Source: Methylotenera sp. (lineage in GTDB: Bacteria > Pseudomonadota > Gammaproteobacteria > Burkholderiales > Methylophilaceae). From it: DNA of 64,000 nucleotides. How positions within the stretch are numbered: the first letter of the stretch is position 1; every line of letters begins with the position of its first letter. The notes below the pieces were generated by a model. The model was given only the letters and a program-made list of their open reading frames with translations. It searched no databases and was not told the origin of the DNA. This document shows, piece by piece, positions 27,362 through 55,429 of this stretch. Location of the stretch: assembly GCF_029945705.1 (NCBI RefSeq), contig NZ_JAQSDC010000049.1, positions 1 to 64,000 on the forward strand. Direction: 5' to 3'. The translations under genes were made by a program, and so were the position numbers.

Positions 27362-27985
27362 TTAAAAAGGTAATTTAAGGTGATACTTTATTGAGGTTAT
27401 TCTTAGTACAGTTGTAAAAGCAATTGCGACTAGTGTGCTAGGTAGTTCATCTAAACCTAAATATAGGCATATTAAAAATACCGCGCTACCTAGTGCGGCG
27501 CATGTCGCGTAAAGCTCGTTGCGACGAAAAACATTGGGGATTTCATTGCAAATAATATCGCGAATAATTCCGCCAAATACGCCTGTGACTACACCCAGCA
27601 ACATTGAGATATAAAAATCACAACCCACTTGGTGGGCCATACTGGCACCTATTGTGCTAAATAAGCCAAGGCCAAGTGCATCTAATGTGACAAAAATTTT
27701 GGTAACCGTTGAGTTTTCATAAAAGTTGATCGAAAGCGGCGCGGCAGCTATTGCAAAACCCAGCAGCATTAAAGCATAGCCTGAGTGTTGCACCCAATAT
27801 AGAGGATAATGCCCTATCATCAGATCTCGCACAGTTCCGCCACCAAAGGCGGTAATCATGCTCACAGTATAAACACCGATCAAATCCATCCCTTTTTTGC
27901 GCGCTTCTATAATGCCAGTAAATGCAAACGCTAGTACACCGAGTAGTTCAACTAAAGCTAGTACATTGATTTGGGAGAAAATCAC
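27362..27985 (-). CDS. UPF0126 / TRIC-like membrane protein, probable glycine transporter
   Basis: This 207-residue protein is almost wholly hydrophobic, with about seven membrane segments in two similar halves. Each half has the family glycine-arginine motif: FGGGTVRDLMIG and FGGIIRDIICNEIP. The UPF0126 family (YadS, YicG) has been linked to glycine transport by mutant phenotype screens; the same fold is annotated as a TRIC cation channel. It begins with GTG only 10 bases after the betA stop, so it appears to be the third gene of the betB-betA operon. Glycine is the product of the neighbouring pathway, which supports, but does not prove, a glycine role. Confidence 0.75.
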   Translation of the reverse strand: MIFSQINVLALVELLGVLAFAFTGIIEARKKGMDLIGVYTVSMITAFGGGTVRDLMIGHYPLYWVQHSGYALMLLGFAIAAAPLSINFYENSTVTKIFVTLDALGLGLFSTIGASMAHQVGCDFYISMLLGVVTGVFGGIIRDIICNEIPNVFRRNELYATCAALGSAVFLICLYLGLDELPSTLVAIAFTTVLRITSIKYHLKLPF

Positions 27986-27995
27986 TTAATATTTG

Positions 27996-29681
27996 TTATG
28001 TGTTTGAAGCTGCATCTGCATAGCGATGAAGTGGATGAATAAACACTGGTACTACTTTCGCAGAAAGTGGTTTGCGACCTCGAATATTATCTGATATTTT
28101 CTCAGCCATCATAATGGTAGGTGCGTTTAGATTGCCAGTGACGATTTCAGGCATGATAGACGCATCAACCACACGCAGACCTTGTAGACCATGCACGCGA
28201 CCTTCTGTATCAACAACAGCCATTTCATCGTAGCCCATTGCGCATGAGCAGGATGGGTGATACGCCGTTTCGCCATGTTGGCGGACGAATGCATCTATTT
28301 CCGCATCGGTCTGTACGTTTTCACCAGGTGAAATTTCTCGCTCCACATAAGGTGCTAGCGCAGCTTGTTTCATGATATTGCGTGTAATACGCACACCAGC
28401 ACGAAACTCCCGTTTATCTTGCTCGGTAGACATGTAGTTAAACAAGATACTTGGATACTCTAGCGGATCTTTTGAGCGTATTTGCACACGCCCACGGCTA
28501 GGTGAGCGCATAGAACCCATATGTGCCTGAAAACTATGAATCTTAATTGGATTACTACCATCGTAATTAATCGCCACAGGCAAGAAGTGATATTGAATGT
28601 TAGGCCAAGTAAAGCTATCGTCACTACGAATAAAACCGCCCGCTTCAAACTGATTACTCGCGCCTATACCAGTGCCTAAAAAGAGCCATTCGGCACCAAT
28701 TAAGGGCTGATTATAGAGCTTTAGAGCCGGTGCTAATGACACTGGTTGTTTGCATTCGTATTGTTGATATATTTCCATGTGGTCTTGCAAGTTTGCACCT
28801 ACTCCGGGCAAATCATGCACCAATGGAATGTCTAAATCACGCAACAAAGCTGCTGGACCGACTCCTGAGCGCTGCAATATAGGTGGCGAGGCGATAGCGC
28901 CAGCACACAACAAGACTTCACGCTTGGCATTGGCTTGTCGGGACTTGCCACCAAGCAAGTAAGCCACCCCCGTTGCGCGCTTACCCGTAAACAAAATGCG
29001 GTCAGTCAGTGCATGGGTAATAATAGTGAGGTTTTTACGATCGCGCGCTTGGTCTAAATAGCCGCGTGCAGTACTTGAGCGCCTACCTTGCGGCGTGGTT
29101 GTGCGATCCATTGGACCAAAGCCTTCTTGCTGGAAGCCGTTTAAATCTTCAGTATGCGGATAGCCCGCCTGGACGCCTGCTTCAACCATCGCTGCATATA
29201 GCACATTATTGCCGCGTTTTGGGGTAGTGACACTTACAGGGCCGTTATCGCCATGATAATCATTGGAGCCAATATCTCGTGTTTCGGCTTTCTTAAAATA
29301 GGGTAGGCAATCGAAATAAGACCAATTTTCCAAGCCCTTACGTTTAGCCCATCCATCATAATCTAAAGCATTACCACGGATATAACACATGCCATTAATC
29401 AAAGATGAGCCGCCTAAGCCTTTACCGCGACCACATGAAATTCGCCGATTATTCATATGCGGCTCTGGCTCGGTTTCATAAGCCCAGTTATAACGCCTAC
29501 CTTGTATGGGATAAGCTAAAGCTGCAGGCATTTGTGTACGAAAATCTAATCGATAATCAGGCCCACCGGCTTCTAGCAAAAGTACCGTTACATCAGCATC
29601 TTCGGTCAGGCGCGTTGCCAAAACATTACCCGCAGAGCCTGCGCCTATAATGATGTAATCGAACTCAATACTTTTACCCAT
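27996..29681 (-). CDS. betA: Choline dehydrogenase
   Basis: BetA is a membrane-associated FAD flavoprotein of the GMC family that oxidises choline to betaine aldehyde. The FAD site [16 protein letters not shown] is at the N terminus. The GMC signature [20 protein letters not shown] and the catalytic His in [14 protein letters not shown] are present. I place the start at the ATG at 29681 because AAGGA lies 5 bases upstream; an upstream in-frame start would add nine residues. The 561-residue length is normal. It is translated after betB with a 60-base gap. Confidence 0.93.
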
Positions 29682-29741
29682 GACTTTCCTTAAAGACCAT
29701 ACGTTCAATCAATAGACCGACAATAAACTGGTAATCAACCA

Positions 29742-31214
29742 CTAAAACACAGACGTATAATTACCCAACTCAACTTGAATCGACTTAACTCGCGTGTAGT
29801 TTTGTAGCGTCATTAAACCATTCTCGCGCCCTACTCCAGACTGCTTATAGCCACCAACTGGCATTTCGGCAGGTGACTCGCCCCAAGTGTTAATCCAACA
29901 AATACCTGCCTGAAGCTGATGTATAACACGGTGCGCACGACTAATATTTTCTGTAATTAATCCTGCGGCAAGACCGTATTCAGTATCGTTAGCGCGGCGA
30001 ATCACTTCGTCTTCATCGTCATAAACGAGGATACTCATTACAGGCCCAAAAATTTCTTCACGAACAATCGTCATGTCATCTTTACAATCGGTGAACACGG
30101 TTGGCTGTACATAAGCACCATTAGCAAAATCGCCGCTAAGCTCTCGCTTTCCGCCAGCTAACAAGCGTGCGCCTTCTTTGATACCAGAATCAATATAGCG
30201 TAGCACGTTTTGCATATGCGACTGGCTAACTAGTGGGCCAAAATTCGTATTTTCGTCTTGTGGATTACCAAGGCGGATGCGCGCCACACGCTCGATAATT
30301 TTTTGTTCGAATTCCTGAATATTAGAACGATGCACAAACACGCGCGTGCCATTGGTACACACTTGGCCTGAACTATAGAAGTTCGCCATCATCGCAACAT
30401 CTGCGGCTTTATCCATATTGGCATCTGAGAAAACAATCAAAGGTGACTTTCCACCAAGCTCCATCGTCACATCTTTTAAGGTTGAGCTTGAAGCACTCGC
30501 CATGACTTTTTTACCTGTAATCGTGCCGCCTGTGAATGATATTTTCTCAATGCCGGCATGTGCCGTTAACCATGCACCTACTTCAGCACCACTTCCGTTC
30601 AGTACATTAAATACGCCATCTGGTAACCCAGCTTCAGTATAAATTTCAGCTAATTTCAAGGTGCTCAGTGGCGTGACCTCGCTGGGTTTGAAAATCATTG
30701 CATTACCAGCGGCTAAGGCCGGAGCGGATTTCCACAATGCGATTTGAATGGGGTAGTTCCATGCGCCAATGCCAGCCACCACGCCCAGCGGCTCTCTGCG
30801 CGTATAAGCAAAAGCGCTTTCACGTAATGGAATTTGTTGGCCTTCAAGTGCCGGGACTAATCCAGCGTAATACTCAAGCACATCAGCGCCAGTGACAATA
30901 TCGACATAACGCGTTTCAGAAATTGGCTTGCCTGTATCTAAGGTTTCCAACTCAGCAAGCGCATCATTACGCTCACGCAAAATTTCTACGGCCCGTCGTA
31001 AAATACGAGAACGCTGCATGGCCGTCATCGCAGCCCAAACACGCTGACCTTGATTGGCGCTGGCAACAGCAGCATCCACATCAGCTTCTGAGGCAACTTG
31101 CACATCAGCCAACACTTCACCATTGGCAGGGTTAATGGTCTGGAATGTTTTGCCGCTTGTTGCTTCTACCCGCTTACCACCTATGTAAAGTTGTTGTAAT
31201 TCAAAACGTGGCAA
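29742..31214 (-). CDS. betB: Betaine aldehyde dehydrogenase
   Basis: BetB oxidises betaine aldehyde to glycine betaine with NAD(P). Motifs are [21 protein letters not shown], the nucleotide-binding [11 protein letters not shown], the catalytic Glu in MELGGKSP and the catalytic Cys in [14 protein letters not shown]. The length of 490 residues is typical. The start appears to be TTG with GGAG 7 bases upstream, giving the family-like N terminus [14 protein letters not shown]. It heads the betB-betA-UPF0126 unit. No betI repressor is present, unlike enterobacterial bet loci. Confidence 0.93.
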
Positions 31215-31385: not shown

Positions 31386-32324
31386 TTACCAACTACGTTT
31401 AATATAGAAGGTAAATTTACGGTCATTAATCACTTGACCATTGTCATCTGTATAATATTTAGTATCAATTGAACATTGCTCTTCACCAAAAGTGCCTGTG
31501 TAATTAAAGCCTGCATTAAAGCCATCAAGCGGTTTGCCAGCCGTTGGTAACGAGAAGTTTCTGTTCAAACCAATCAAATAATCTTTTTGATTTAAGCAGA
31601 TGTCGCTAGAGCGTTGATAACCGACTTTGGCAGCTAAGTTTAAACCTGCAAATGGCAAAGTATTAGCATATTTTAATTCATGATACTCAACACCACTAGT
31701 ATCAGCAGCGGCATTAATCACATTAGCTGGGTTTGTAAAGCTTATAGCGCTTGCTGGATCACGCTTTGTGTTACCAATACCATACCAGTCTGTAAAGGCG
31801 TGATAGAACGTATAGGTGAAGCCGTAAGCAGAAACGTTTAAATTACCTTCAAAAGTGTCTTGGTTTCTATTGTGGTAAGATTTCTCACCTTCTGGATACC
31901 ATACATAGTTACCACCCACACCCAACGTAACTGGGCCAAATGTATGTGCGTAGCCACCGTACCAATCAGTTTCCACATGGTTACCTGACCCTAACGGATT
32001 ACCACTAGGGTCAGTAGCAGTAACGCTTCCTGCAGCTCCTAAAGTTTGTGGGTCAGTGGTTGAAAACCAAGTTCCCAGATAGAAACCACTGCTATGCGCC
32101 CAATCAACACCACCTTGCAACGCAGGGCCACCTCCCCAGTCATTACCACGTGAAATGTAATTAGAATAAACGCCAAGATTATAAGTTAGGGTATAAGCGG
32201 GTGCTGGCTCAGCTACGGCTGGAGCCACCTCTTCTGCTGAAGCATAAGCACAGCTTAATAAAATTGGTGCTGCGCACAGTGCGCTTACTACTTGACGATT
32301 TGTAATCCAACTCAGCGCTTTCAT
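31386..32324 (-). CDS. TorF family putative porin
   Basis: The 312-residue protein has a signal peptide ending CAYASA, followed by an alanine/proline-rich linker and beta-strand repeats rich in aromatic residues. The opening LTYNLGVYSNYISRGNDWGGGPALQGG matches the TorF/TIGR02001 outer membrane family. The last residue is Trp (FYIKRSW), compatible with barrel insertion. Its promoter shares the operator layout found at betB, choX and soxB. It is therefore a candidate outer membrane entry route for choline or betaine; the substrate itself is not shown by the sequence. Confidence 0.75.
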   Translation of the reverse strand: MKALSWITNRQVVSALCAAPILLSCAYASAEEVAPAVAEPAPAYTLTYNLGVYSNYISRGNDWGGGPALQGGVDWAHSSGFYLGTWFSTTDPQTLGAAGSVTATDPSGNPLGSGNHVETDWYGGYAHTFGPVTLGVGGNYVWYPEGEKSYHNRNQDTFEGNLNVSAYGFTYTFYHAFTDWYGIGNTKRDPASAISFTNPANVINAAADTSGVEYHELKYANTLPFAGLNLAAKVGYQRSSDICLNQKDYLIGLNRNFSLPTAGKPLDGFNAGFNYTGTFGEEQCSIDTKYYTDDNGQVINDRKFTFYIKRSW

Positions 32325-32709: not shown

Positions 32710-33732
32710 ATGTCTTGTAAGGAAATGTCACAGGTCAGGCATGTTGGGTTCTTGACCCTGAATAATTTTTCTATGATTGCATTTTCGAATGCGATTGAAA
32801 TCCTTCGAATGGCAAACTACTTGCTAGGCCAAGAAGTCTACCAGTGGTCAGTCATCACCCCAGATGGCCTACCCGTTGAGGCAAGTAATGGTTTAGCTTT
32901 TGCCAAAACAACCATGCTAGACAATATCGCCATGCCAGACATGCTGCTTGTTTGTGGTGGCGTGGATGTGCAAACTTCCGTCAATTCAAGCGTTATCAAG
33001 TTAATCACCCAAGCTAGCAAGCAAAATGTATGGTTAGGCAGCTTATGTACTGGTAGTTACGCATTGGCAAAAGCTGGCGTGCTAGATGGCTACAAATGCA
33101 CTATTCATTGGGAGAACATGGCAAGTCTGCGTGAGAAGTTTCCATATATCACCTTTATGGAAGAGCTTTTTGTGATTGACCGTGACCGCTGCACATGCGC
33201 AGGTGGAACAGCGCCGATAGACTTAATGTTGGCATTTGTTTTTGCGAGATTTGGCAAAAATTTAGTGGCTGAAATTTCAGACCAATTTATGGTGGTGCGT
33301 GCAAGAGATAGTAAGGATCAACAGCACATTCCAGTTGCAGCGCGTGTTGGTTATAGCCATAAAGCCTTAGTTGAAGTGTCGGCTTTAATGGAGGCAAATA
33401 TTGAAGAACCTCTGCCGTTGGATGAGCTGGCGCGGCTTGCTGGACTCTCTCAGCGCCATTTACAACGTATGTTTAACCACACGCTTAACATGAGCCCTAT
33501 GCATTACTATTTGAACCTTAGGTTAAGGCGTGCTAGATCTTTGCTTTTACAAACGGAGATGTCGATTATGAGCATTACGGTCGCCTGCGGATTTCAGTCT
33601 TCCTGTCACTTCAGCAAATCATACCGCACGCTGTTTGGCTACTCGCCAAGCAAGGAAAGACGTAAGAACCAGCATACGCCAGCTATTCATTCACTTACCA
33701 GCAACACCAATATGCACATAAGTCATACCTAA
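32710..33732 (+). CDS. gbdR: AraC family transcriptional regulator, GbdR-like
   Basis: The protein has an N-terminal DJ-1/PfpI-like sensor domain (about residues 10-190, with GSLCTGSYALAKAG as the nucleophile-elbow equivalent) and a C-terminal AraC DNA-binding domain (about 220-320). That domain contains LARLAGLSQRHLQRMF and a second helix-turn-helix at ITVACGFQSSCHFSKSYR. This GlxA/ArgR-like architecture is that of GbdR, which activates glycine betaine and dimethylglycine catabolic genes in Pseudomonas. Its place inside the cluster supports that role. The first ATG has GGGG 4 bases upstream; M6 is an alternative start. Confidence 0.8.
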   Translation: MSCKEMSQVRHVGFLTLNNFSMIAFSNAIEILRMANYLLGQEVYQWSVITPDGLPVEASNGLAFAKTTMLDNIAMPDMLLVCGGVDVQTSVNSSVIKLITQASKQNVWLGSLCTGSYALAKAGVLDGYKCTIHWENMASLREKFPYITFMEELFVIDRDRCTCAGGTAPIDLMLAFVFARFGKNLVAEISDQFMVVRARDSKDQQHIPVAARVGYSHKALVEVSALMEANIEEPLPLDELARLAGLSQRHLQRMFNHTLNMSPMHYYLNLRLRRARSLLLQTEMSIMSITVACGFQSSCHFSKSYRTLFGYSPSKERRKNQHTPAIHSLTSNTNMHISHT

Positions 33733-33760
33733 AATGACTTTTCATGCGCCGTGATTCACA

Positions 33761-33822
33761 TGTCGTGATTTAACAAGATTCTGTCGTAATTCTTTATTTA
33801 AATGTTGACTACTCGCTATATT
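33761..33822 (+). promoter_or_regulatory. Candidate GbdR-type operator and promoter of choX
   Basis: Half-sites TGTCGTGATT (33761-33770) and TGTCGTAATT (33782-33791) lie exactly 21 bp apart, with a -10-like TATATT (33817-33822) 25 bp further and no good -35. A poor -35 next to the proximal site is typical of AraC-activated promoters. The first half-site is preceded by TCACA, as at soxB. Confidence 0.7.
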
Positions 33823-33932: not shown

Positions 33933-34922
33933 ATGAATCACTTTGCAAAATCTGTTTTAATCGCCGCACTATTCCCTCTAGCCTTTACTGCCTGCGGCAA
34001 AAAGGAAAGTGAAGTTTCCACTCCTGCGGCCACTGCAGCAGCATCAAGTACTGGCGAAGCTGCTAGTTGTAGTGCTGTAAAATTTGCTGATATTGGCTGG
34101 ACTGACATTACCGCAACCACCGCACTCTCCTCTGTCGTTTTAGAAGGTTTAGGTTACAAACCTGTTTCTACTATTGCATCTGTACCCATTGCATTTGCTG
34201 GCATTAAAAAGAGTCAGATTGATGTTTTCCTTGGTTACTGGTCACCATCAATGACACCAATCGTTGAGCCGTTTCTTAAAGACATTAAAGTACTCGAAAA
34301 ACCTAACTTGGTTGGCGCCAAATATACTTTAGCCGTACCTACTTACGCCTATGAAGCTGGTTTAAAAAGCTTTGCTGATATTGCTAAATTTAAAGATAAC
34401 CTTGAAGGCAAAATGTACGGCATCGAGCCAGGTAATGACGGCAATAAAATCATTGCAGATATGATTACTAAAAATGCATTTGGCCTTAAAGATTTCAAAA
34501 TGGTTGAATCTAGCGAGGCGGGCATGTTGACTGAGGTTAGTCGCTCAGTTAAAAATAAGAAATGGATTGTATTCTTAGGTTGGGCACCTCATCCAATGAA
34601 TGTACAACAAGACATTACTTACCTAAGCGGTGGTGACGACTTCTTTGGTGCAAATTATGGCGAAGCAAAAGTGTACACCGTGACAGCCACTGATTTAGGA
34701 ACACGTTGCCCGAATGTGAATAAACTCGTTACCAATTTAGAGTTTAATTTGGACATGGAAAACCAAGTGATGCTGCCAATTATGGATAAAACAGCACCTA
34801 ATGAAGCGGCAAAAGCTTGGTTAACTAAAAATCCTGCCGTGTTAGACAAATGGTTAGATGGTGTAAATACTTTAGACGGTAAACCTGGTTTAGAAGCGGT
34901 GAAAAAATACTTAGGCGTTTAA
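33933..34922 (+). CDS. choX: Choline/glycine betaine ABC transporter, substrate-binding lipoprotein
   Basis: This is a type II periplasmic binding protein of the ChoX/ProX/OpuAC group. The N terminus is a lipoprotein signal with the cysteine at residue 21 (LAFTAC), then an Ala/Ser/Thr linker. Aromatic residues expected to form the cage round a quaternary amine are visible in DIGWTDI, LGYWSPSM, AVPTYAYEAG and LGWAPHPMN. That pattern resembles the four-aromatic site of ChoX. Choline or betaine are the likely ligands. It has an AGGAG ribosome binding site and a terminator behind it. The ATPase and permease are about 18-20 kb downstream. Confidence 0.8.
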   Translation: MNHFAKSVLIAALFPLAFTACGKKESEVSTPAATAAASSTGEAASCSAVKFADIGWTDITATTALSSVVLEGLGYKPVSTIASVPIAFAGIKKSQIDVFLGYWSPSMTPIVEPFLKDIKVLEKPNLVGAKYTLAVPTYAYEAGLKSFADIAKFKDNLEGKMYGIEPGNDGNKIIADMITKNAFGLKDFKMVESSEAGMLTEVSRSVKNKKWIVFLGWAPHPMNVQQDITYLSGGDDFFGANYGEAKVYTVTATDLGTRCPNVNKLVTNLEFNLDMENQVMLPIMDKTAPNEAAKAWLTKNPAVLDKWLDGVNTLDGKPGLEAVKKYLGV

Positions 34923-34991: not shown

Positions 34992-35085
34992 CGTGCTGCT
35001 ATCCTATTACTTTTCAACTAATCACCAAGGTCGTAGACGCAACGCGTTAACGCTTGATTATTTTATGTTGGCTTAAAACGTCACA

Positions 35086-35149
35086 TGTCGTAAAAAGCCA
35101 AGAAACAGTCTGATGTAGCACATTAAACAAAGCGCTGAAACAGCAGAAT
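35086..35149 (+). promoter_or_regulatory. Candidate GbdR-type operator and promoter of the sox-dgc-gbc run
   Basis: Half-sites TGTCGTAAAA (35086-35095) and AGTCTGATGT (35107-35116) are 21 bp apart, with a weak -10-like CAGAAT (35144-35149) 27 bp further. TCACATGTCGT here is identical over 11 bases to the choX site. The second half-site is the weakest of the set. Confidence 0.55.
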
Positions 35150-35191: not shown

Positions 35192-36445
35192 TTGAAAAAA
35201 GATTATTCCATTTGGAAACTACTCTCACAAGGGTTAAAACATCACGAAGGATGGACGCCAGCTTGGCGCAGCCCTGAAATTAAATCTTCCTATGACGTAG
35301 TGATTATTGGCGCTGGTGGTCATGGTTTAGCCACAGCTTACTATCTCGCTAAAGAGCATGGTATTAAAAATATTGCGGTATTAGAAAAAGGCTATTTAGG
35401 GGGCGGTAATACTGCGCGCAACACCACGATTGTCCGCTCTAATTACCTTTGGGATGAAGCCGCCATGCTTTATGAGCACTCACTCAAGCTGTGGGAAGGA
35501 TTGACCGAAGATATTAACTATAACGTGATGTTTAGTCAGCGCGGTGTGTTCAATTTAGGCCATACACTGCAAGATATGCGCGATATTGAGCGTCGTGTGA
35601 ACGCCAATAATCTAAACGGTATTGATGCCTTGGCGTTGAATGCGCAAGAAGTGAAAGACCGTATTCCAATGATTAACATCTCTAAGGACACGCGCTTTCC
35701 AATTATGGGCGCAAGTTTTCAACCTCGCGCAGGGGTGGCTAGGCACGATGCTGTTGCTTGGGGCTTTGCTCGTGCGGCGAGCAATTACGGAGTTGATATT
35801 ATCGAAAACTGTGAAGTGACCGCGATGGATATTGTTAATTCAGCCATTAAAGGTTTACAAACAAGTAAAGGTTATATTTCAACATCAAAAGTTGGCTGTG
35901 TGACAGCAGGCCATTCATCAGTGATGGCAAAAGCTGCTGGTATCCGCATGCCGCTTGAAAGTCATCCGCTACAAGCGTTTGTTTCCGAGTCACTCAAACC
36001 TATATTAGATACGGTGGTGATGTCTAATGCAGTGCATGGTTATGTGAGTCAATCAGATAAAGGTGAGCTTGTGATTGGCGCAGGCATTGACCATTACACT
36101 AGCTATGCCCAGCGTGGCAGCCCACATGTAATTGAGCACACCGCAGCCGCGATTATCGAACTATTTCCGATGTTTTCACGCGTACGCATGAATCGCCAGT
36201 GGGGTGGCATTGTTGACACAACGCCTGATGCCTGCCCGATTATCAGTAAGACTAAAGTCAAAGGCTTGTACTTTAACTGTGGCTGGGGGACAGGTGGCTT
36301 TAAAGCAACGCCTGGGTCTGGCAATGTATTCGCCCACACCATTGCTCATGATGAACCACACCCATTAAACGCTGCATTCACGCTTGACCGTTTCCATACA
36401 GGTCATTTGATTGACGAGCATGGTGCGGCTGGTGTTGCGCATTAA
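35192..36445 (+). CDS. soxB: Sarcosine oxidase, beta subunit
   Basis: SoxB is the catalytic flavin subunit of heterotetrameric sarcosine oxidase, which demethylates sarcosine to glycine. The FAD site [18 protein letters not shown] starts near residue 35. The [13 protein letters not shown] segment holds the His expected to carry covalent FMN in this family. [15 protein letters not shown] and [15 protein letters not shown] are further family motifs. The start is a TTG with GGAGG 4 bases before it. Length is 417 residues. It is the first gene of a long same-strand run through gbcB with no gap over about 105 bases. Confidence 0.93.
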
Positions 36446-36469: not shown

Positions 36470-36769
36470 ATGTTTGTTATTAAATGCCCGCATTGTTTTG
36501 AAGCGCGAGAAGAAGAAGAGTTTAGCTATGGTGGCGAGGCCTTTGTCGCACGCCCAACATCACCCGAAACTGAAAGCGAAGAAAGTTGGGGCGATTACTT
36601 GTTTATGAAACGAAATCCGAAAGGTTGGCACTGGGAAATGTGGGGACATAGCACAGGTTGTCGTAAGTTTTTTGTATTAAAGCGCAACACTGCAAATCAC
36701 ACCACAGTAGGCGCTTGGACATTGGCTGAAGCTCGTAAAATTTATGATGCAGAAGAGGCAACAGCATGA
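36470..36769 (+). CDS. soxD: Sarcosine oxidase, delta subunit
   Basis: SoxD is the small zinc-binding subunit of the heterotetrameric enzyme. At 99 residues it has the expected CPHC motif at residues 6-9 and the later HSTGCRKFF segment, which supply zinc ligands, plus the EESWGDYLFMKRNPKG core. Its stop overlaps the soxA ATG (ATGA), implying translational coupling. Confidence 0.93.
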   Translation: MFVIKCPHCFEAREEEEFSYGGEAFVARPTSPETESEESWGDYLFMKRNPKGWHWEMWGHSTGCRKFFVLKRNTANHTTVGAWTLAEARKIYDAEEATA

Positions 36770-40429: not shown

Positions 40430-40433
40430 CAGC

Positions 40434-44868: not shown

Positions 44869-44888
44869 CCTGACATATTGGAAAACCC

Positions 44889-46952: not shown

Positions 46953-46954
46953 TC

Positions 46955-48850
46955 ATGCTCATGATGAACTACAGCATTACCGCACTATTTTGGCTAGCAA
47001 CAGCAACATTGTTGCTAGGTCTGTGGAAACGTACAAAATTATGGCGTGCAGGCCAGCCTGCGGAATTTGCATGGTTAAATCTATTAGCCATTCCTAAACG
47101 TTATTTTGTAGATTTGCACCATGTGGTTGCGCGTGAACCTTTTATTGCCCGCACTCACGTTGCCACCGCTGGTGGCGCTGTAGCAGCATTAGGCTTAGTC
47201 GCGATTAATTACGGTTTAATGCTGTATTGCGCGGCGCTAAATTGGGCTATATTAGCCGCCACGGCAATCATGTTGATTGGTGTGTTTTTTGTATGGTTAA
47301 GACGCCGCAACGCCCCCGCTCGCCTATCTCGTGGCGCATGGAGCCGACTACCCTACTCACTTGCTGCATTCGCACTAGGTTTGCTGATTGTTAATCTGCC
47401 AGTCACTGTACTTTCTGCTGGCGTTGCAGTGTTTGCTTTATTACTACTCTTAGTAGGCTCAGCCGAACTAGCTTTAGGCATTGGTCTCGGCGGCCCAATG
47501 AAGCACGCCATTGCTGGTTTGTTACACCTTGCTTTTCATCCACGCCAAGAGCGCTTTAGCGGTAAATTATCTACTGCACTCATGACCTTAGACCTGACCA
47601 ATCAAGAGTACGGCATTAATAAACCTTCAGACTTTAAATGGAATCAATTATTGGGTTTTGACGCCTGCGTGCAATGCGGAAAATGTGAAGCGGCTTGTCC
47701 GGCCTTTGCTGCAGGCCAACCACTTAACCCTAAAAAACTCATCCAGGATTTAGTGCTAGGCTTATCCAATGATGAAAAATCTGGCAAAACGGATGCCAAT
47801 TTTGCAGGTAGCCCGTATCCGGGACTGCCAATTGGTGAGCATTCTGGCAGCATGCATGCGCCTATTGTACCCTCGCTCATAGAAGCCGAAACACTATGGT
47901 CTTGCACTACTTGTAGAGCTTGTGTGCAAGAGTGTCCAATGTTAATTGAGCATGTAGATGCCATCGTAGGTTTGCGCCGCAACCTCACCTTAACGCAAGG
48001 GGCTGCGCCAGGCAAAGCACCTCAGACCTTAGAAAACCTACGTCAAACCGCTACGGTTGGTGGTTACGATAGAAATGCACGCTACCATTGGGCCGTTGAT
48101 TTAGACGTTAAAACCATCCAGCCAAATATGCCTGTTGATCTATTATTGGTGGCTGGAGAAGGCGCATTTGACATGCGTTACCAACGCACCTTACGCGCAC
48201 TAGTTAAGCTTCTCAAGGCAGCAAAAATGGATTTTGCGGTGATGGGTGCCTTAGAACGCGATACTGGCGATACTGCAAGACGACTTGGTGATGAAGCTAC
48301 ATTTCAGTCATTGGCAAAGCAAAATATTGATACGTTTAATAGCCTTACATTTAAGCGTATTGTCACGGCAGATCCACATGTGATGCACAGTCTAAAGAAT
48401 GAATACCCTGCCCTTGGTGGCAACTATGAAGTATTGCATCACACCACATTACTTGCGCAGCTAGCTAGCAGCGGTCAATTAAAATTAGGTAAGTCCGCTG
48501 AAACTCGGAAATTAACTTACCACGACCCCTGTTATTTGGGGCGTTACAACGGTGAAACTGATGCGCCACGCGATTTGCTTAAAGCCATTGGTTTACAAGT
48601 GAATGAGATGGAACGTTCAGGCTTACGTGGTCGCTGCTGTGGAGGTGGTGGCGGTGCGCCGCTGACAGATATTCCAGGCAAACAACGTATTCCAGACATT
48701 CGTATTCAGGATGCTCGCAATATAGGCGCAGAGTTGGTTGCAGTCGGCTGCCCACAATGCACCTCAATGTTAGAAGGTGTCGTTAGAAATCGTCCTGACG
48801 TATTAGATATTGCTGAACTAGTGGCATCGGTTATGGAGCATGCATCATGA
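46955..48850 (+). CDS. dgcB: Dimethylglycine demethylase subunit DgcB (iron-sulfur)
   Basis: DgcB is a membrane-anchored iron-sulfur protein. It has several hydrophobic segments in the first 200 residues, two ferredoxin-type motifs (CVQCGKCEAACP and CTTCRACVQECP), and a C-terminal CCG domain with YHDPCYLGRYNG, RCCGGGGG and VGCPQCTSML. It most likely passes electrons from DgcA, or from the EtfAB pair, to the membrane quinone pool. It starts 2 bases after dgcA and its stop overlaps the etfA ATG. Confidence 0.88.
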   Translation: MLMMNYSITALFWLATATLLLGLWKRTKLWRAGQPAEFAWLNLLAIPKRYFVDLHHVVAREPFIARTHVATAGGAVAALGLVAINYGLMLYCAALNWAILAATAIMLIGVFFVWLRRRNAPARLSRGAWSRLPYSLAAFALGLLIVNLPVTVLSAGVAVFALLLLLVGSAELALGIGLGGPMKHAIAGLLHLAFHPRQERFSGKLSTALMTLDLTNQEYGINKPSDFKWNQLLGFDACVQCGKCEAACPAFAAGQPLNPKKLIQDLVLGLSNDEKSGKTDANFAGSPYPGLPIGEHSGSMHAPIVPSLIEAETLWSCTTCRACVQECPMLIEHVDAIVGLRRNLTLTQGAAPGKAPQTLENLRQTATVGGYDRNARYHWAVDLDVKTIQPNMPVDLLLVAGEGAFDMRYQRTLRALVKLLKAAKMDFAVMGALERDTGDTARRLGDEATFQSLAKQNIDTFNSLTFKRIVTADPHVMHSLKNEYPALGGNYEVLHHTTLLAQLASSGQLKLGKSAETRKLTYHDPCYLGRYNGETDAPRDLLKAIGLQVNEMERSGLRGRCCGGGGGAPLTDIPGKQRIPDIRIQDARNIGAELVAVGCPQCTSMLEGVVRNRPDVLDIAELVASVMEHAS

Positions 48851-49980
48851 GTGATGAAAATAACATTAAGCGTATCAACCCGCGCCGGGCTTATAAAATC
48901 ATGGCGGATGGCGTCAAGCGTATTGTATTAGGCAGTATCTCTGATTTCGTGGCGCATGAAGCGACATCTCACCATGGCACAAACAAACCTGTTCGTACAC
49001 CAAGCGCACCGAAAGCGCGTGTATTGGTAATTGCTCATAGCGATAGAGGTATGCTGGATGACCATGCAAGGCAGGCGCTAGCCGCCGCGGCCATTCTAGC
49101 GGATGCCAATACGGCAGTTGTAGTTTTGGTGTTAGGTGAATTGCGTGAAGATTTATCCAATGCTGGTGCAGATGAAGTGCTAGTGATTGCTGAGTTAGAT
49201 TATCAAACATTTCAACCTGATGTTGAAGTGAGTTGTGCAAAAACAATCATAGCGTCAATTGTGCCGAAGCATATTTTTATGCCAGATAATTTGATTGGTG
49301 ACGGCGATCTAGGACGCAGGCTAATCGCTTGCTATCCAGAAAAATCAGCTGCAACGCATGTCATAGAGCTAAACAATGTACAAGTGGCGAACTATCAATT
49401 AGGCGGTACGTCTTTAGCATTAACCAGCTTACCTTATATCGTTTTACTTGCCGCCGATACAACTGACTCGCGCCTAGCCTTTAGCGCTGCAGCACAAAAA
49501 CTGGATAGTACATTCGCTAACCAAAATACAGCTAAAAGCCAAAAAAGCAACTATACAAATTTAGGTATGCAAACTATCTCTGCAGCCAACATCGCTTTAG
49601 AAGAAGCTGACTTTATCGTTTCTGCGGGCAATGGGGTGGATAACGTAACAACCTTACAAGCATTGGCTGCGTCTTTAGATGCAGCGATTGGTGCCAGTCG
49701 CGTGGCGGTAGATGATGGAAAATTTACGCGCGACAAGCAGATTGGTGCAACGGGTAAAACAGTCACCGCCAGCACTTACTTAGCCATTGGTATATCTGGT
49801 GCGGTACAACATTTACAAGGTATTAAAGATTGCCGCCATGTGATTGCGATTAACCGCGACAATAGCGCGCCCATTATAAAGCGGGCAGATTTGTCTGTGA
49901 TTGGCGATGCCGAAAGCATTATGCAAGAACTGATTACCGCTATTGCACAAGTTAAATCATCTGCGCAGGAGGCCGCATGA
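48847..49980 (+). CDS. etfA: Electron transfer flavoprotein alpha subunit-like
   Basis: The C-terminal third matches the FAD-binding domain of EtfA (DKQIGATGKTVTASTYLAIG, GISGAVQHLQGI and AINRDNSAPIIKRADLSVIGD), and the N-terminal part is the ETF nucleotide-binding fold. The first 50 residues carry an extra basic extension (INPRRAYKIMADGVKRIV). This gene pair accompanies dgcAB in Pseudomonas and is needed to accept electrons from dimethylglycine oxidation. ATGA overlaps with both neighbours suggest coupled translation. Confidence 0.88.
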   Translation: MSDENNIKRINPRRAYKIMADGVKRIVLGSISDFVAHEATSHHGTNKPVRTPSAPKARVLVIAHSDRGMLDDHARQALAAAAILADANTAVVVLVLGELREDLSNAGADEVLVIAELDYQTFQPDVEVSCAKTIIASIVPKHIFMPDNLIGDGDLGRRLIACYPEKSAATHVIELNNVQVANYQLGGTSLALTSLPYIVLLAADTTDSRLAFSAAAQKLDSTFANQNTAKSQKSNYTNLGMQTISAANIALEEADFIVSAGNGVDNVTTLQALAASLDAAIGASRVAVDDGKFTRDKQIGATGKTVTASTYLAIGISGAVQHLQGIKDCRHVIAINRDNSAPIIKRADLSVIGDAESIMQELITAIAQVKSSAQEAA

Positions 49981-50780
49981 GCATTAAAAACATTGTTGCA
50001 CTAGTTTCTGCTGGACGTCACCCCATTAGTGGTCAAGCTAGACATTGCCGAAATGACAGTTTGGCTATGACGATAGGCTTAGCATTGACCAGCGATCTCA
50101 ATGCAGAAAATGCCAATAGCGTTAATTTAAAAGTGATACATGCGGGCCATGCGAAGAATGCCGCATTAACGGATTACTTAGCATTAGGAGCTAGTCAAAT
50201 TGATGTAATTCCAGCTTTGGAAAATGCAGATATTGTCGATAGTCTTGCAGAGAATCTTAAAAATGTAGATGTTATTTTAATGGGCAGCCGTGCAGAAAGT
50301 GGACAAGATAGCGGCCTACTGCCCTACTTGCTTGCCGAAAAGCTGAATTATTCATTAGTCGCAAATGTACTCACCATCAAGCAAACAACTGAGGGTATCG
50401 AAGCCTTGCAGTTTTTACCAAAAGGCAAGCGTCGGAGTGTCAAAGTGACAATGCCGACGGTTATCGTCATTCACCCACTAGCACCCGTACAATTACGCCA
50501 CGCTTACGCTCGCCAAGCAAATGGTCATATCAGCCAGTTTGCAACACAAACGCCAACACAAGAATCTAAATACTCATGTACGGTTGAATGGCAAACACAA
50601 TCTACGATACGCAAACCAAACAAGCTAAAAGCCAAAGAAAACAAATCTGGACATGCGCGTATGTTATCGGCGACAGTCAGTGAAAACAAAGGTGGCGCTG
50701 TCGTAAACGATGGAAATTCTGTCGAAAAAGCACAAGTTATTCTGAGCTATTTGCGTGAACATCGTCTTATCAACTTTTAA
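49977..50780 (+). CDS. etfB: Electron transfer flavoprotein beta subunit-like
   Basis: This 267-residue protein fits EtfB: MGSRAESGQDSGLLPYLLAEKL matches the ETF beta signature, and KVTMPTVIVIHPLAPVQLR follows. It partners the preceding etfA, with an ATGA overlap and a GGAGG ribosome binding site. The C-terminal part after residue 190 is variable and basic. The pair is diverged from fatty acid oxidation ETFs and is likely specific to this pathway. Confidence 0.87.
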   Translation: MSIKNIVALVSAGRHPISGQARHCRNDSLAMTIGLALTSDLNAENANSVNLKVIHAGHAKNAALTDYLALGASQIDVIPALENADIVDSLAENLKNVDVILMGSRAESGQDSGLLPYLLAEKLNYSLVANVLTIKQTTEGIEALQFLPKGKRRSVKVTMPTVIVIHPLAPVQLRHAYARQANGHISQFATQTPTQESKYSCTVEWQTQSTIRKPNKLKAKENKSGHARMLSATVSENKGGAVVNDGNSVEKAQVILSYLREHRLINF

Positions 50781-50813
50781 TGTAATTGAACGAAAATTAA
50801 GCTAGGAGATTTC

Positions 50814-52121
50814 ATGAGTATTTCATCAGACATACAAAATATGATTAAAAATCGTCGCAAAGGCTACACGCTTGAAGCTCCCTTTTACTTGAGCCCTGAA
50901 ATCAATGCGCTAGATATTGAAGCTATTTTTGGTCAGCACTGGATTTTTGTTGCTGTAGAACCTGAAATTTCTGAGCCTGGTGACTATATAAAAGTAGATA
51001 TTGGTCATAATTCAGTGATTATTTTGCGTGACGACGATATGGATATTAAAGCATTTCATAATGTTTGCCGCCATCGTGGTTCACAACTTTGCGACGACGC
51101 TAAGGGTAGTGTTGGTAACTTAGTATGCCCATACCACCAATGGACTTACGATCTATCTGGCAAGCTTATTCACAATGCACATATGGGAGATGATTTTGAT
51201 AAGAATATCCACAATCTAAAGCCAGTGCATGTAGGAAATATTGCAGGACTTATTTTTATTTGCTTGAGTGATGAACCGCCTGCTGATTTTGAAGTGATGA
51301 AACGCTCAATGGAGCCTTATATAGCGCCACATCAACTTGCGAATTGCAAAGTAGCCCTTCAAGAAGATATTATCGAGAATGGCAATTGGAAGCTGACGAT
51401 GGAGAATAATCGCGAGTGCTATCACTGCGTGGCTAACCATCCTGAGTTATTAAACTCGATGTATGAATTTGGTTTTGGCTATCAGCCATCTCCAGAAAAT
51501 GCTGAGAAAGTCCAAGAGTTTCGTGATCTGATTGAAACAGAAGCAAACCGCTGGGCTACGTGTGGTTTGCCGTCGGAAGAGATTGATTTACTAGATGGCT
51601 GCGCAACAGCTTATCGCACACAAAGACTTCCACTAGAGAAAGCTGGCGAATCTCAGACTATGGATGGCAAAGTAGCAAGCCAAAAACTATTAGGCAGTTT
51701 TACTCAACGCAACTTGGGTGGCTTATCATTTTGGACTCAACCCAACTCATGGCACCATTTCATGAGTGATCATATTATTACATTTTGCGCTTTACCAATT
51801 GATGCTGAACATACATTGGTTCGCACAACATGGTTGGTGCACAAAGATGCAATCGAAGGTGTGGATTACAACATTGAAAGATTATGCGAGGTGTGGCGCG
51901 CTACTAATAAGCAAGACTCTACGTTGGTCGAGCGAACACAACGTGGCGTGAATAGTGAGTGGTACGAGCCAGGTCCTTACTCTCCTTATACCGAAGAGTT
52001 AGTAGAAAAATTTACTAATTGGTATATACAGCGCTTAGAAGCAACACTAGAGAACCCTGAGTTTATTAAAAAGCAAGCTGCGGCTAACGCTAAAACTGTG
52101 CCGATTATGGTGTGTCGCTAA
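50814..52121 (+). CDS. gbcA: Glycine betaine monooxygenase, Rieske oxygenase component
   Basis: GbcA is the Rieske oxygenase that demethylates glycine betaine to dimethylglycine, releasing formaldehyde. The Rieske ligands are CRHRGSQLC and CPYHQW (C-x-H and C-x-x-H). The mononuclear iron site is NNRECYHCVANHPEL. The length of 435 residues is right for the family. AGGAG precedes the ATG. The gbcB ATG overlaps its stop by one base (TAATG). Confidence 0.93.
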   Translation: MSISSDIQNMIKNRRKGYTLEAPFYLSPEINALDIEAIFGQHWIFVAVEPEISEPGDYIKVDIGHNSVIILRDDDMDIKAFHNVCRHRGSQLCDDAKGSVGNLVCPYHQWTYDLSGKLIHNAHMGDDFDKNIHNLKPVHVGNIAGLIFICLSDEPPADFEVMKRSMEPYIAPHQLANCKVALQEDIIENGNWKLTMENNRECYHCVANHPELLNSMYEFGFGYQPSPENAEKVQEFRDLIETEANRWATCGLPSEEIDLLDGCATAYRTQRLPLEKAGESQTMDGKVASQKLLGSFTQRNLGGLSFWTQPNSWHHFMSDHIITFCALPIDAEHTLVRTTWLVHKDAIEGVDYNIERLCEVWRATNKQDSTLVERTQRGVNSEWYEPGPYSPYTEELVEKFTNWYIQRLEATLENPEFIKKQAAANAKTVPIMVCR

Positions 52122-53242
52122 TGATCTCAAGGAATACGCCTGAGCTTTGGAACGCTAACTTGCCACAATGGGATAGCGACAAGAACAATGTACTTGTTTG
52201 CTGTCAGATAAGGCAAGAAACGCATGACGTGAAAAGCTTTTTCTTTGCACCACAAGAAGCAAGCGTATTCAAATTTTTGCCAGGACAGTTTATTACTCTA
52301 GAACTCAGCATTGATGGCGAAATTATCAATCGTAGTTATACCATCTCATCTTCACCAAATCGCCCACATGTGATTTCGATTACCGTTAAACGTAAGCCTG
52401 ATGGCGTCGTATCAAATTGGTTACATGACAACATGAAAGTGGGTATGCCAATATCGGCATTAGGGCCAACAGGCGATTTCACTTGTGTGCTTTACCCTGC
52501 GCAGAAATATCTATTTTTATCAGGCGGCTCTGGCATTACGCCACTTATGTCGATGGCGCGCTCTTTTCATGAGCTAGCCGAAGACGCTGATGTTATATTT
52601 TTGCATAGTGCAAGATCGCCAGCAGACCTCATTTTTAAACATGAACTTGATTTAATGGCGTTCAATCAAACGAATTTTCAGCCAGTCTATATTTGTGCAA
52701 AAGTGGATAAATCGCCTAATTGGCGCTTACAGCCAGAGTTTATCACCGAGGGTATGCTGACCGCAGAAAGCCTAAAACTAAGTGCGCCAGACTTTTTAGA
52801 GCGCGAAGTGTTTACCTGTGGCCCTGCGCCGTATATGGCATCGGTACGTCATTTACTGGCAACTGCTGGCTTCAATATGGCACATTACCATGAAGAAAGC
52901 TTCACTTTTGACGAGCTACCCGCAGAAACCCAAGCTAGCGTTCAAGCTGAAGAAGAACTCTCAAATCACAATAATATACAAACGTTTTCAGTGGAGTTAA
53001 GCAAAAGCGGAACGACTATTCAGTGCGCACCAGACCAGTTTGTTCTAGATTCGGCGCGTGCAGCAGGCTTAAGACTGCCATCGTCATGCAGCAAGGGTTT
53101 GTGCGGCACTTGTAAAAGTAAATTAATTTCAGGTCAGGTGGAGATGAAGCATGGCGGCGGCATTCGTCAACGTGAGATAGATCAAGGCATGTTTCTACCC
53201 TGCTGCTCTAAGCCATTAAGTAATCTGGTCATTGAAAAATAG
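52121..53242 (+). CDS. gbcB: Glycine betaine monooxygenase, reductase component
   Basis: GbcB supplies electrons from NAD(P)H to GbcA. It has a FAD domain with NRSYTISSSP, a NAD domain with FLSGGSGITPLMSMAR and FTCGPAPYMASV, and a C-terminal plant-type [2Fe-2S] ferredoxin domain with SSCSKGLCGTCKSKL and a final cysteine in FLPCCSKP. I choose the ATG at 52121, coupled to the gbcA stop, over the GTG at 52112. Length is 373 residues. It ends the long sox-to-gbc run. Confidence 0.92.
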   Translation: MISRNTPELWNANLPQWDSDKNNVLVCCQIRQETHDVKSFFFAPQEASVFKFLPGQFITLELSIDGEIINRSYTISSSPNRPHVISITVKRKPDGVVSNWLHDNMKVGMPISALGPTGDFTCVLYPAQKYLFLSGGSGITPLMSMARSFHELAEDADVIFLHSARSPADLIFKHELDLMAFNQTNFQPVYICAKVDKSPNWRLQPEFITEGMLTAESLKLSAPDFLEREVFTCGPAPYMASVRHLLATAGFNMAHYHEESFTFDELPAETQASVQAEEELSNHNNIQTFSVELSKSGTTIQCAPDQFVLDSARAAGLRLPSSCSKGLCGTCKSKLISGQVEMKHGGGIRQREIDQGMFLPCCSKPLSNLVIEK

Positions 53243-53348: not shown

Positions 53349-54587
53349 ATGGGGGTCATACAGTCTGTAAATACATCGACGACTGAAGCAAAAGTAGTCG
53401 TCAGAAATCTGCATAAAGTGTTTGGTAATAAACCTGAAGTTGCGTTACAGATGTTGAAAGAAGGATTCCATAAGGATGAAATTCTCAAAAGAACTGGACA
53501 AGTAGTTGGTGTACAAGACGCCTCCTTCGAAATTAACAAAGGTGAAATCTTTGTCATCATGGGACTTTCTGGTTCAGGGAAATCCACTTTAATTCGACTA
53601 CTTAATCGACTCATAGAACCCACTGCTGGCAATATTATTGTTGATGGTGAAGACGTTGCGGCAATGAGTAAAGACAAGTTGCTTAATTTGCGTCGCAAAG
53701 ACATGAGCATGGTTTTTCAGTCATTTGCATTGTTACCGCATAGAACTGTGGTCGAAAATGCAGCATTTGGATTAGAAATCGCTGGTATCAATCTTGCTGA
53801 ACGTGAGCGTCGTGCAATGGAAGTATTAGAGCAAGTTGGTTTGCATACTTTTGCCAAACATTTACCCGCCCAACTCTCTGGCGGTATGCAACAACGTGTA
53901 GGACTTGCGCGCGCGCTCACTGTTAATCCTTCTTTAATGTTGATGGATGAGGCGTTCTCAGCATTAGATCCCCTACGCCGCACTGAGATGCAAGACGTAC
54001 TGATGAAGCTACAACAAGAACAAAAACGGACCATTGTTTTTGTTTCTCATGATCTTGATGAAGCGCTTCGTATTGGTAACCGTATTTGTATTATGGAAGG
54101 CGGTCGCGTCGTGCAAGTCGGCACTTCAGAAGATATTCTTCAACGACCCGCAGATGACTATGTGAAAGCATTCTTTACCGGGGTTGATGTGAACAAATAT
54201 CTGACAGCTAAAGATGTTGCTCAAAAAGAAGAAGTCACCATTTTTGATCGCCCAGATGATTTAGTGGCTGGGTTCAGTGCCGCGCTTGCTCGCATGCGCT
54301 TATTTAACCGAGATTATGCCTTTGTATTAGATGAACTACAGAAAGTGGTGGGGGTAGTTTCTGCAGAATCGCTGACTAATTGCATGAATCAAAAAGGGAA
54401 AAAACTGCGTGATGCGCTATTGCCCGGAGAGTTTGCTATTCCAGGAAAAACGCCAGTGAATGAAGTCCTGAATAAGGTAGTTGGCTGCGCTTGCCCACTG
54501 CCAGTCATTGGTTATAGCGGCGAATATCTCGGTGCAATCACTAAAACAGTTTTACTGCGCAAGCTATATAAGGAGAAAAAAGCATGA
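53349..54587 (+). CDS. choV: Quaternary amine ABC transporter ATP-binding protein
   Basis: This ProV/OpuAA-type ATPase has Walker A GLSGSGKST, signature LSGGMQQRVGLARAL, Walker B LMLMDEAFSALDP, and the family-specific N-terminal extension with a helix before the first strand (VALQMLKEGFHKDEILKRTG). Two CBS motifs fill the C terminus (about 280-405), where OpuA-type transporters sense ionic strength. The CBS domains here are short and acidic/basic charges are few, so catabolic uptake is more likely than osmotic regulation. The upstream gap of 106 bases may hold a promoter; no half-site pair is seen there. Confidence 0.88.
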   Translation: MGVIQSVNTSTTEAKVVVRNLHKVFGNKPEVALQMLKEGFHKDEILKRTGQVVGVQDASFEINKGEIFVIMGLSGSGKSTLIRLLNRLIEPTAGNIIVDGEDVAAMSKDKLLNLRRKDMSMVFQSFALLPHRTVVENAAFGLEIAGINLAERERRAMEVLEQVGLHTFAKHLPAQLSGGMQQRVGLARALTVNPSLMLMDEAFSALDPLRRTEMQDVLMKLQQEQKRTIVFVSHDLDEALRIGNRICIMEGGRVVQVGTSEDILQRPADDYVKAFFTGVDVNKYLTAKDVAQKEEVTIFDRPDDLVAGFSAALARMRLFNRDYAFVLDELQKVVGVVSAESLTNCMNQKGKKLRDALLPGEFAIPGKTPVNEVLNKVVGCACPLPVIGYSGEYLGAITKTVLLRKLYKEKKA

Positions 54588-55429
54588 GCTATAAAATCCC
54601 TCTAGGTGAATGGGTTGCGGGTGCAGTTGGCTGGTTAGAAGTCAATGACCATGGTCTGTTCAATGGCTTGGGCGGAATCATTGACAGCTCAACCGCAGGT
54701 ATTGAAAATGGCTTACAAGCCATCCCTTTTTGGCTATTCGCCATCATCTTTATAGCTATAGGCTATTGGCGCCTTGGCTGGAAGTTTGCCTTATTCTGTA
54801 CGGCTTCTCTTTGGTTAATCAATAACATGGGCTTTACCGCTCAAACATTAGTGACACTCGCACTCATCATATCTGCGACATTAATTAGCTTAACTGTTGG
54901 TATTCCGCTCGGCATTTGGGCAGGCAGAAATGATAAGGCAGAAGCCATTATTCGACCAATATTAGATTTTATGCAAACTATGCCAGCGTTTGTTTACTTG
55001 ATTCCAGCGGCAATGTTCTTTGGCTTAGGTCGAGTACCAGGCGTCATTGCCACTGTTATTTTCGCGATGCCGCCAGTGGTTCGTCTAACGTCACTTGGTA
55101 TCCGCCAAGTGAATAAAGAGCAAGTGGAAGCTGGTATCGCTTTTGGTTGCACGCCTACTCAGTTGCTGATGAAAGTACAAATACCTAGTGCAATGGCTGC
55201 ATTGTTTGCGGGCATTAATCAAACCATTATGATGGCATTATCCATGGTGATTATTGCTTCAATGGTTGGCGCTGGCGGCTTGGGTAATGATGTGTTATCA
55301 AGCATTTCACGCTTAGATATAGGCTTGGGGTTTGAAAGTGGTTTAGGCGTAGTATTGCTAGCCATTATGTTAGATAGAATTACTGAAAGCTTTGGGGTAA
55401 AACGTAACGCTAAAAATGGCATTAAGTAA
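54584..55429 (+). CDS. choW: Quaternary amine ABC transporter permease
   Basis: This ProW/OpuAB-type permease has about six membrane segments and the EAA loop in QVEAGIAFGCTPTQLLMKVQIP, which contacts the ATPase. The first 40 residues (MSYKIPLGEWVAGAVGWL) are amphipathic. The length of 281 residues is normal. Its ATG overlaps the choV stop, with AAGGAG upstream. It works with choV and the distant choX. Confidence 0.9.
   Translation: MSYKIPLGEWVAGAVGWLEVNDHGLFNGLGGIIDSSTAGIENGLQAIPFWLFAIIFIAIGYWRLGWKFALFCTASLWLINNMGFTAQTLVTLALIISATLISLTVGIPLGIWAGRNDKAEAIIRPILDFMQTMPAFVYLIPAAMFFGLGRVPGVIATVIFAMPPVVRLTSLGIRQVNKEQVEAGIAFGCTPTQLLMKVQIPSAMAALFAGINQTIMMALSMVIIASMVGAGGLGNDVLSSISRLDIGLGFESGLGVVLLAIMLDRITESFGVKRNAKNGIK

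Follow-up and report, generated by a model that had tools for sequence, protein, structure and literature searches.

The reaction steps from choline to pyruvate are established chemistry of the enzyme families considered here, and the choline and betaine genes of Pseudomonas aeruginosa are, we presume, also located in one broad region. The subject of this report is a choline-to-pyruvate gene island of Methylotenera sp. (Methylophilaceae), found at positions 27362-55429 of a 64,000-nucleotide stretch of DNA (the window), which lies on contig NZ_JAQSDC010000049.1 (C49) of a host genome (G000) of 2.93 Mb, in 60 contigs and rated 100% complete. The P. aeruginosa set (betAB, gbcAB, dgcAB, soxBDAG, glyA1, sda, GbdR), as described in the accessible part of PMC12093977, comprises the same enzymes, regulator family, and dipeptidase-hypothetical-dgcAB-etf order as the window, but differs in that the window host is a ribulose monophosphate (RuMP) methylotroph without a match to 2-oxoglutarate dehydrogenase E1, no purU is present in the island, and no second regulator such as SouR was found among the genes of the run. 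The same part of that source describes contiguous betaine catabolism clusters, as in the window, for Vibrio penaeicida and V. fluvialis, the former having a contiguous gbc/dgc/sox cluster with betIBA and choVWX directly upstream, and the Vibrio clusters differ in having integrases or insertion sequence elements nearby in some species; methylotrophy is not mentioned in that part. For Colwellia psychrerythraea 34H, the available portion of PMC3691474 places bet, gbc, dgc, sox, and glyA near each other, as in the window, and argues for a horizontal origin of this region, which, unlike the window, holds BCCT transporters, purU, formaldehyde and formate dehydrogenase genes, and a duplicated sox operon. 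The 'methylovory' of SAR11 resembles the proposal made below in that betaine methyl groups are oxidised for energy, but no net one-carbon (C1) assimilation is predicted there, and the SAR11 sarcosine oxidase is of the monomeric type (PMC3160333, in the part available).

The pathway and contiguous clusters of its genes are known; what is new is the setting in a RuMP host and an apparently swapped central block. The original prediction, made from the window sequence, had taken the assembly of all genes in a single island as unusual, and this was ruled out as a novelty by the contiguous clusters in print for Vibrio and Colwellia, and by Aquitalea and some Paraburkholderia loci that combine many of the genes. 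No paper describing the island in Methylophilaceae was found in open-licence PubMed Central, as judged by title and the start of the abstract, and choline, betaine, and sarcosine were not found mentioned in the accessible portions of PMC4109929, PMC3728764, and PMC11978286. Taken together, we consider it likely that the window holds a Pseudomonas-type (Gbc/Dgc/TSOX) choline-catabolic island, probably working, in a RuMP methylotroph, with a central block that was replaced in place.

Gene content, host, and proposed pathway

An open reading frame (ORF) list and family searches showed a run of 22 genes, none of them interrupted; the minus strand carries the PF03458 'glycine transporter', betA, betB, and the gene of a TorF-type porin, and the plus strand the genes from gbdR-like to choW, in the order given in Table 1. 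Every choline-to-pyruvate enzyme is encoded by an uninterrupted gene in this run, several of them scoring below curated cut-offs, and with all steps of a single pathway represented in an uninterrupted run of 22 genes, chance can be set aside as an explanation. All genes named in the original prediction (choX, choVW, betA, betB, gbcAB, dgcAB, etfAB, soxBDAG, glyA, sdaA, and a gbdR-like gene) were recovered in place and uninterrupted by ORF list and family matches; the porin that it had assigned to uptake is also present, as a TorF/Gcw_chp family protein whose link to choline is only putative. Three genes of the run were missing from that list (the PF03458 'glycine transporter', the M19 dipeptidase, and the DUF5943 protein), the first of which adjoins betA also in genomes G090, G027, G106, G041, and G028.

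Gene names were based on NCBIfam curated cut-offs and Pfam domains, and BetA, BetB, ChoX, SoxB, SoxA, SdaA, and GlyA scored above their NCBIfam cut-offs. The ATPase scored above the ProV and under the ChoV cut-off, so the name ChoV was given by context, and ChoX is encoded ~18 kb away from ChoVW. No NCBIfam match above cut-off carries the name DgcA or DgcB, and both were named from domains and gene order; these domains agree with the description of the two proteins in the available part of PMC12093977, in which the order dipeptidase-hypothetical-dgcA-dgcB-etfA-etfB is also described for choline/betaine catabolism genes. Four sarcosine oxidase subunits are encoded in the order B-D-A-G, corresponding to the heterotetrameric type, with D and G under NCBIfam cut-offs. 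SoxB was aligned to the beta subunit of a solved sarcosine oxidase (1vrq_B) over 394 residues (576 bits), with its His185 matching a histidine that we take to be the attachment site of flavin mononucleotide (FMN). In GbcA, the Rieske cluster and mononuclear-iron ligand motifs are both present, and its substrate is assigned provisionally, from sequence; a pyridoxal phosphate (PLP) motif was found in GlyA.

The suspicion voiced in the original prediction that the host is a methylotroph was borne out, as hexulose-phosphate synthase (two genes), pyrroloquinoline quinone (PQQ) methanol dehydrogenase, and mch all scored above cut-off in the host, so the host does not lack a formaldehyde assimilation route. 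Hexulose-phosphate synthase was above cut-off in 12/12 genomes searched (controls: family matched in 12/14, above cut-off in 2/14), PQQ methanol dehydrogenase in 9/12 including the host (controls 0/14), with five host frames above cut-off, three of them counted with their neighbours, and mch, the sole gene of the tetrahydromethanopterin (H4MPT) route that was searched, in 12/12 (controls 3/14, all archaea). RuMP is described for all Methylophilaceae, and no serine cycle, in the available text of PMC6794327. The 2-oxoglutarate dehydrogenase E1 (sucA family) was matched in 0/14 genomes including the host at E up to 1e-30, with controls matched in 6/14 named genomes, and because of this missing E1 match the host probably cannot fully oxidise pyruvate through a complete tricarboxylic acid cycle. 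At 646-4062 of the window lies a two-subunit pair resembling pyruvate carboxylase/oxaloacetate decarboxylase, a possible entry for pyruvate made by the island.

In the proposed pathway, choline would be imported by ChoXWV and converted to glycine betaine by BetA and BetB, followed by demethylation to dimethylglycine and formaldehyde by GbcAB, and to sarcosine and a second formaldehyde by DgcAB, with electrons passed to EtfAB. SoxBDAG would convert sarcosine to glycine and methylene-tetrahydrofolate, GlyA would join that glycine and that C1 unit to serine, and SdaA would release pyruvate and ammonium from serine. The third methyl, on tetrahydrofolate, matches the one carbon needed by GlyA for serine. 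The original prediction had coupled three N-demethylations to C1 assimilation; this would hold for two of the three methyls, which would be released as formaldehyde and could then enter RuMP assimilation or be oxidised by the H4MPT route, while the third is expected on tetrahydrofolate from the chemistry of the family. Since the host is without a 2-oxoglutarate dehydrogenase E1 match, energy would be expected mainly from the two formaldehydes via RuMP/H4MPT, with pyruvate going to biosynthesis. The coupling of choline demethylation to C1 routes, the substrate specificity of the enzymes, and regulation by GbdR are what we infer from these assignments.

Two sets of observations weigh against this assignment of function: GbcA, GbcB, GbdR, SoxD, SoxG, EtfA, EtfB, and ChoW are best family matches yet fall under the curated cut-offs, and the nearest solved relatives of GbcA are 3vca and 4qup (388 bits each), both presumably stachydrine demethylase. 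The latter relatives, the score of GbcA below the curated GbcA cut-off, and the additional M19 dipeptidase in the block would fit a pathway whose true substrates include other betaines (e.g. proline betaine/stachydrine), fed in at the GbcA step, and in which choline degradation is a side use. We regard this as very unlikely, as the best named family of GbcA is glycine betaine monooxygenase GbcA, dgcAB, sox, betAB, and choX all lie in the same run, and proline betaine would require further enzymes, none of which is among the matches here. An island serving mainly for nitrogen and osmoprotection, in which demethylation only salvages ammonium and serine and choline does not support growth as a carbon or energy source, would be in keeping with BetA, BetB, and ABC uptake as the usual osmoprotectant set, with the ATPase score above the ProV cut-off, with the release of ammonium that is the family function of SdaA, and with the available part of PMC6794327, where only some sediment dwellers of the family are called facultative methylotrophs. 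This explanation appears unlikely, since GbcAB, DgcAB, SoxBDAG, GlyA, and SdaA would be superfluous for osmoprotection, and the regulator is GbdR-like, with no BetI among the matches of the island genes.

Within the preferred reading of a working choline-catabolic island, we tentatively entertain, at somewhat less than even odds, that a few Methylophilaceae truly grow as methylotrophs on choline and on the products of its demethylation, two methyls feeding the RuMP cycle and the third, together with the glycine core, yielding pyruvate in a cell unable to run a full tricarboxylic acid cycle. The same reading has the demethylase cassette at the core of the island exchanged between lineages, with the genes for uptake, sarcosine oxidation, and serine remaining in place. 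Choline and betaine occur in abundance, in lipids and as osmolytes, and if RuMP methylotrophs use them, part of this methyl carbon would reach one-carbon specialists, and such strains would not be dependent only on methanol or methylamine.

The divergent central block

Comparison of the window with two island carriers of the same genus, G090 and G027, gave DNA identities of 87.2/88.1% to the left, 71.8/71.6% within 44308-51900, and 88.7/88.4% to the right, whereas G090 and G027 are 91.8, 94.1, and 97.6% identical to each other over the same three stretches. Identity falls immediately behind the stop codon of glyA and recovers close to where gbcA ends, with sharp edges. Both carriers have the same flanking genes as the window, with glnD and a cupin gene to the left and a QSregVF_b gene, hyp106, and pilB to the right. 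Their gene order is also that of the window, except that the dipeptidase is missing and that in G090 choX and soxB are separated by an additional ORF (~1.3 kb, in the region of about 1450656-1452284 of contig C1), which the window lacks and which by eye might encode an outer-membrane protein. Protein identities to G090/G027 were mostly 92-99% for the outer genes (soxB 99, gbdR 99, choV 98-99, glyA 97, betA 94), with lower values for gbcB (91), soxG (85-88), and torF (79-87), and within the block were 60-64% for DUF5943, etfA, and etfB, and 82-83% for dgcA, dgcB, and gbcA.

Trees were calculated by a quick method (LG+G4) from sequences cut from tblastn hits. A clade of the window, G090, and G027 was rejected by the approximately unbiased (AU) test for dgcA (p-AU 3e-61), etfA (0.0044), and gbcA (0.0023), and marginally for etfB (0.048); the best gbcB and choV trees already contain it. 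The window copies of dgcA, etfA, etfB, and, weakly, dgcB (support 75) were placed with G177/L002, and that of gbcA with genera g22/g8 (support 82-90). The M19 dipeptidase is nearest to a copy in G193, from another family of the order (89%, support 99), and is found only in the window among the Methylophilaceae stretches compared, several of which are incomplete; it is also closer to the G193 copy than most adjacent genes are to theirs.

Because the identity drop has sharp edges and most gene trees of the block conflict with those of the neighbouring genes, the block was probably replaced in place by a divergent version, in one or more recombination events with other lineages. Several points count against such a replacement. 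For dgcB, the data do not reject the clade of the window, G090, and G027 (p-AU 0.35). Synteny had defined this clade, yet the AU test followed a look at the first trees. Identity is also lowered at places outside the block, namely in torF (two windows with 73-74% to G090) and after choX (66%). The dgcB result and the dip in torF would fit an origin of the block by fast or relaxed evolution, or by an old duplication from which alternate copies were later lost, and so would the rapid divergence of EtfA and EtfB seen throughout (37-53% identity to the non-Methylophilaceae compared). We judge this origin improbable given the sharp DNA edges, the dipeptidase, which among the Methylophilaceae stretches compared (several incomplete) is seen in the window only and is nearest to G193, and the behaviour of dgcA, which is slow (81-84% to outside groups), yet in the window copy is 95% identical to L002/G177 and 82% to G090. 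Read as a probable replacement, the block would be a tangible example of apparent cassette exchange within a cluster of catabolic genes.

Distribution and genomic setting

DgcA was found in 4/52 genomes of the host genus, 10/187 Methylophilaceae genomes (3/24 genera), and 14/399 genomes in a sample of the order (E up to 1e-200), and GbcA in 9/150 family genomes, the host being counted in each case; the island is patchy and rare in the host family. A search of named contigs was evaluated for the best 80 of 572 stretches encoding a DgcA relative, among which the window DgcA is 95% identical to that of L002, a Methylophilaceae metagenome-assembled genome (MAG), and 82% identical to that of L081, a Methylotenera MAG; most other listed matches are assigned by title to Burkholderiaceae (81-84%). 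These latter identities might suggest that the island as a whole came from Burkholderiaceae. This was rejected as a simple account, since the window copies of dgcB, etfA, etfB, gbcA, and gbcB cluster with those of Methylophilaceae and dgcA is 81-84% identical to every outside group. Odd base composition was likewise rejected as a sign of recent arrival, as the GC content at third codon positions (GC3) of the island (0.31-0.47) overlaps that of 11 flanking genes measured (0.30-0.45); total GC was 0.42-0.47 in 2-kb windows at 28-50 kb vs 0.39-0.44 elsewhere.

Burkholderiaceae and Aquitalea clusters (glyA/pepM19-DUF5943-dgcAB-etfAB-gbcAB) have the same order as the central block of the window, with dgcA 81-84% identical. 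Regarding the question raised with the original prediction, whether the island is a standard arrangement in many betaproteobacteria, this is partly the case: dgcA, dgcB, gbcA, and gbcB occur together in 62/62 named loci longer than 20 kb (61 without the one Methylophilaceae locus, Methylotenera L081), but soxB was found in only 5/62 (L064 from Paraburkholderia tropica, partial, L075, L079, L080, and L081; two partial) and choX in 1/62, namely L081 (both at E up to 1e-25), two points in which the window differs from most of these loci. In the same 62 loci, soxA was found in 17, choV in 13, and betA in 25; the flanks of named loci were cut at 10 kb, so that distance, not absence, may explain part of the missing genes. 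Three Aquitalea loci hold sox, dgc, etf, gbc, and choVW together within 22 kb, and eight Paraburkholderia/Burkholderia loci of the 62 combine soxA, choV, choW, dgcAB, and gbcAB. In genus g8 (G041:C9, G028:C48; L108, L110), the betBA-glycine transporter unit is convergent and located next to etfAB-gbcAB-choVW, a rearranged arrangement in another Methylophilaceae genus.

No purU was found in the window island, unlike 43/61 non-Methylophilaceae loci longer than 20 kb that have it within reach, nor in the Methylophilaceae stretches examined, several of them incomplete, and purU lies elsewhere in the genome in 13/13. Its absence was rejected as a methylotroph signature, as it is also missing from 18/61 non-Methylophilaceae loci, including Derxia, two of three Aquitalea, and many Paraburkholderia.

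No tRNA was found in the window, and no integrase among the family-searched neighbour genes, which cover part of the ORFs. In the same-genus genomes without the island that were examined, the left flank is kept and pilB is not beside it, being 18-20 kb apart in G112 and G078 (with other genes filling the interval between glnD and pilB), distant in G084, on a separate contig in G127 and G134, and not found at threshold in G096 and G102. No clean empty site was seen in the non-carriers examined. The carrier G177 likewise lacks the island in the 7 kb next to glnD. Because of this separation of pilB from the left flank in non-carriers and the position in G177, the insertion event is not readable. 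In G096, a close relative for which the searches gave neither DgcA nor GbcA, contig C11 (L148:11069-15441) has a phage integrase and a VapE/DUF5906 gene directly after the cupin gene (window equivalent 26822-27100), which suggests that the spot after this gene is used by different insertions. Adjoining the island, window positions 56368-63595 hold a cluster resembling those for type IV pili or type II secretion, in which genes for a PilB/PilC-like ATPase and platform protein come first and several pseudopilin-like genes, carrying N-methylation motifs, come after them.

Feature coordinates and a candidate operator

Table 1. Features of the choline island, in window coordinates; bits are family scores, given with the curated cut-off where available.
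Feature	Position	Strand	Basis or remark
PF03458 'glycine transporter' family membrane protein	27362..27985	-	family match; downstream of betA
betA, choline dehydrogenase	27996..29708	-	NCBIfam betA 902 bits, cut-off 732
betB, betaine-aldehyde dehydrogenase	29742..31214	-	NCBIfam BADH 742 bits, cut-off 669
TorF/Gcw_chp family putative porin; choline role putative	31386..32324	-	family match
gbdR-like AraC-family regulator (DJ-1/PfpI + HTH)	32710..33732	+	399.7 bits, cut-off 480
candidate operator TCACATGTCGT	33756..33766	+	177 bases before choX
choX, choline-binding protein of ABC transporter	33933..34922	+	453 bits, cut-off 379; OpuAC
candidate operator TCACATGTCGT	35081..35091	+	111 bases before soxB
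soxB, sarcosine oxidase beta	35192..36445	+	over NCBIfam cut-off; structure alignment
soxD	36470..36769	+	93.2 bits, cut-off 116.5
soxA, C-terminal part GcvT-like	36766..39798	+	1337 bits, cut-off 1164
soxG	39764..40429	+	99.1 bits, NCBIfam cut-off 144; over Pfam cut-off
sdaA, L-serine ammonia-lyase	40434..41840	+	631 bits, cut-off 345
glyA, serine hydroxymethyltransferase	41885..43177	+	over NCBIfam cut-off; TSTTHK motif
divergent block, M19 peptidase to GbcA	43178..51900		DNA identity drop; right edge approximate
M19 membrane dipeptidase	43281..44264	+	family match
DUF5943 protein	44308..44868	+	family match
dgcA, dimethylglycine demethylase flavin subunit	44889..46952	+	domains Oxidored_FMN + Pyr_redox_2, gene order
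dgcB, DUF3483 + Fe-S subunit	46955..48850	+	domains DUF3483 + Fe-S + CCG, gene order
etfA	48847..49980	+	257.7 bits, cut-off 600; domains
etfB	49977..50780	+	179.7 bits, cut-off 350; domains
gbcA, Rieske oxygenase	50814..52121	+	475.7 bits, cut-off 670; CxHx17CxxH at 85, ExxHxxxxH at 201
gbcB, reductase with Fer2	52112..53242	+	390.4 bits, cut-off 500; domains
choV/proV ABC ATPase	53349..54587	+	460 bits vs ProV cut-off 444; 365 vs ChoV cut-off 484
choW ABC permease	54584..55429	+	333.4 bits, cut-off 363

The 11-base sequence TCACATGTCGT occurs in exactly two copies in the window, before choX and before soxB, and is put forward as a candidate site for the GbdR-like regulator. Chance occurrence and the other promoters speak against this role: with one mismatch allowed, 0.9 copies were expected in the window and 3 found, with at least 3 in 7/100 shuffles, and the forms before betB, torF, choV, and gbcA carry four mismatches, those before gbdR and pepM19 three. 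In other loci, soxB is preceded by two-mismatch forms in G111 and Aquitalea L079, and G106 and G116 have such forms on the opposite strand, with three mismatches before soxB in L075, and four and three mismatches before choX of G106 and G111, respectively. Exact copies, at the same distances before choX and soxB as in the window, are present in G090 and G027.

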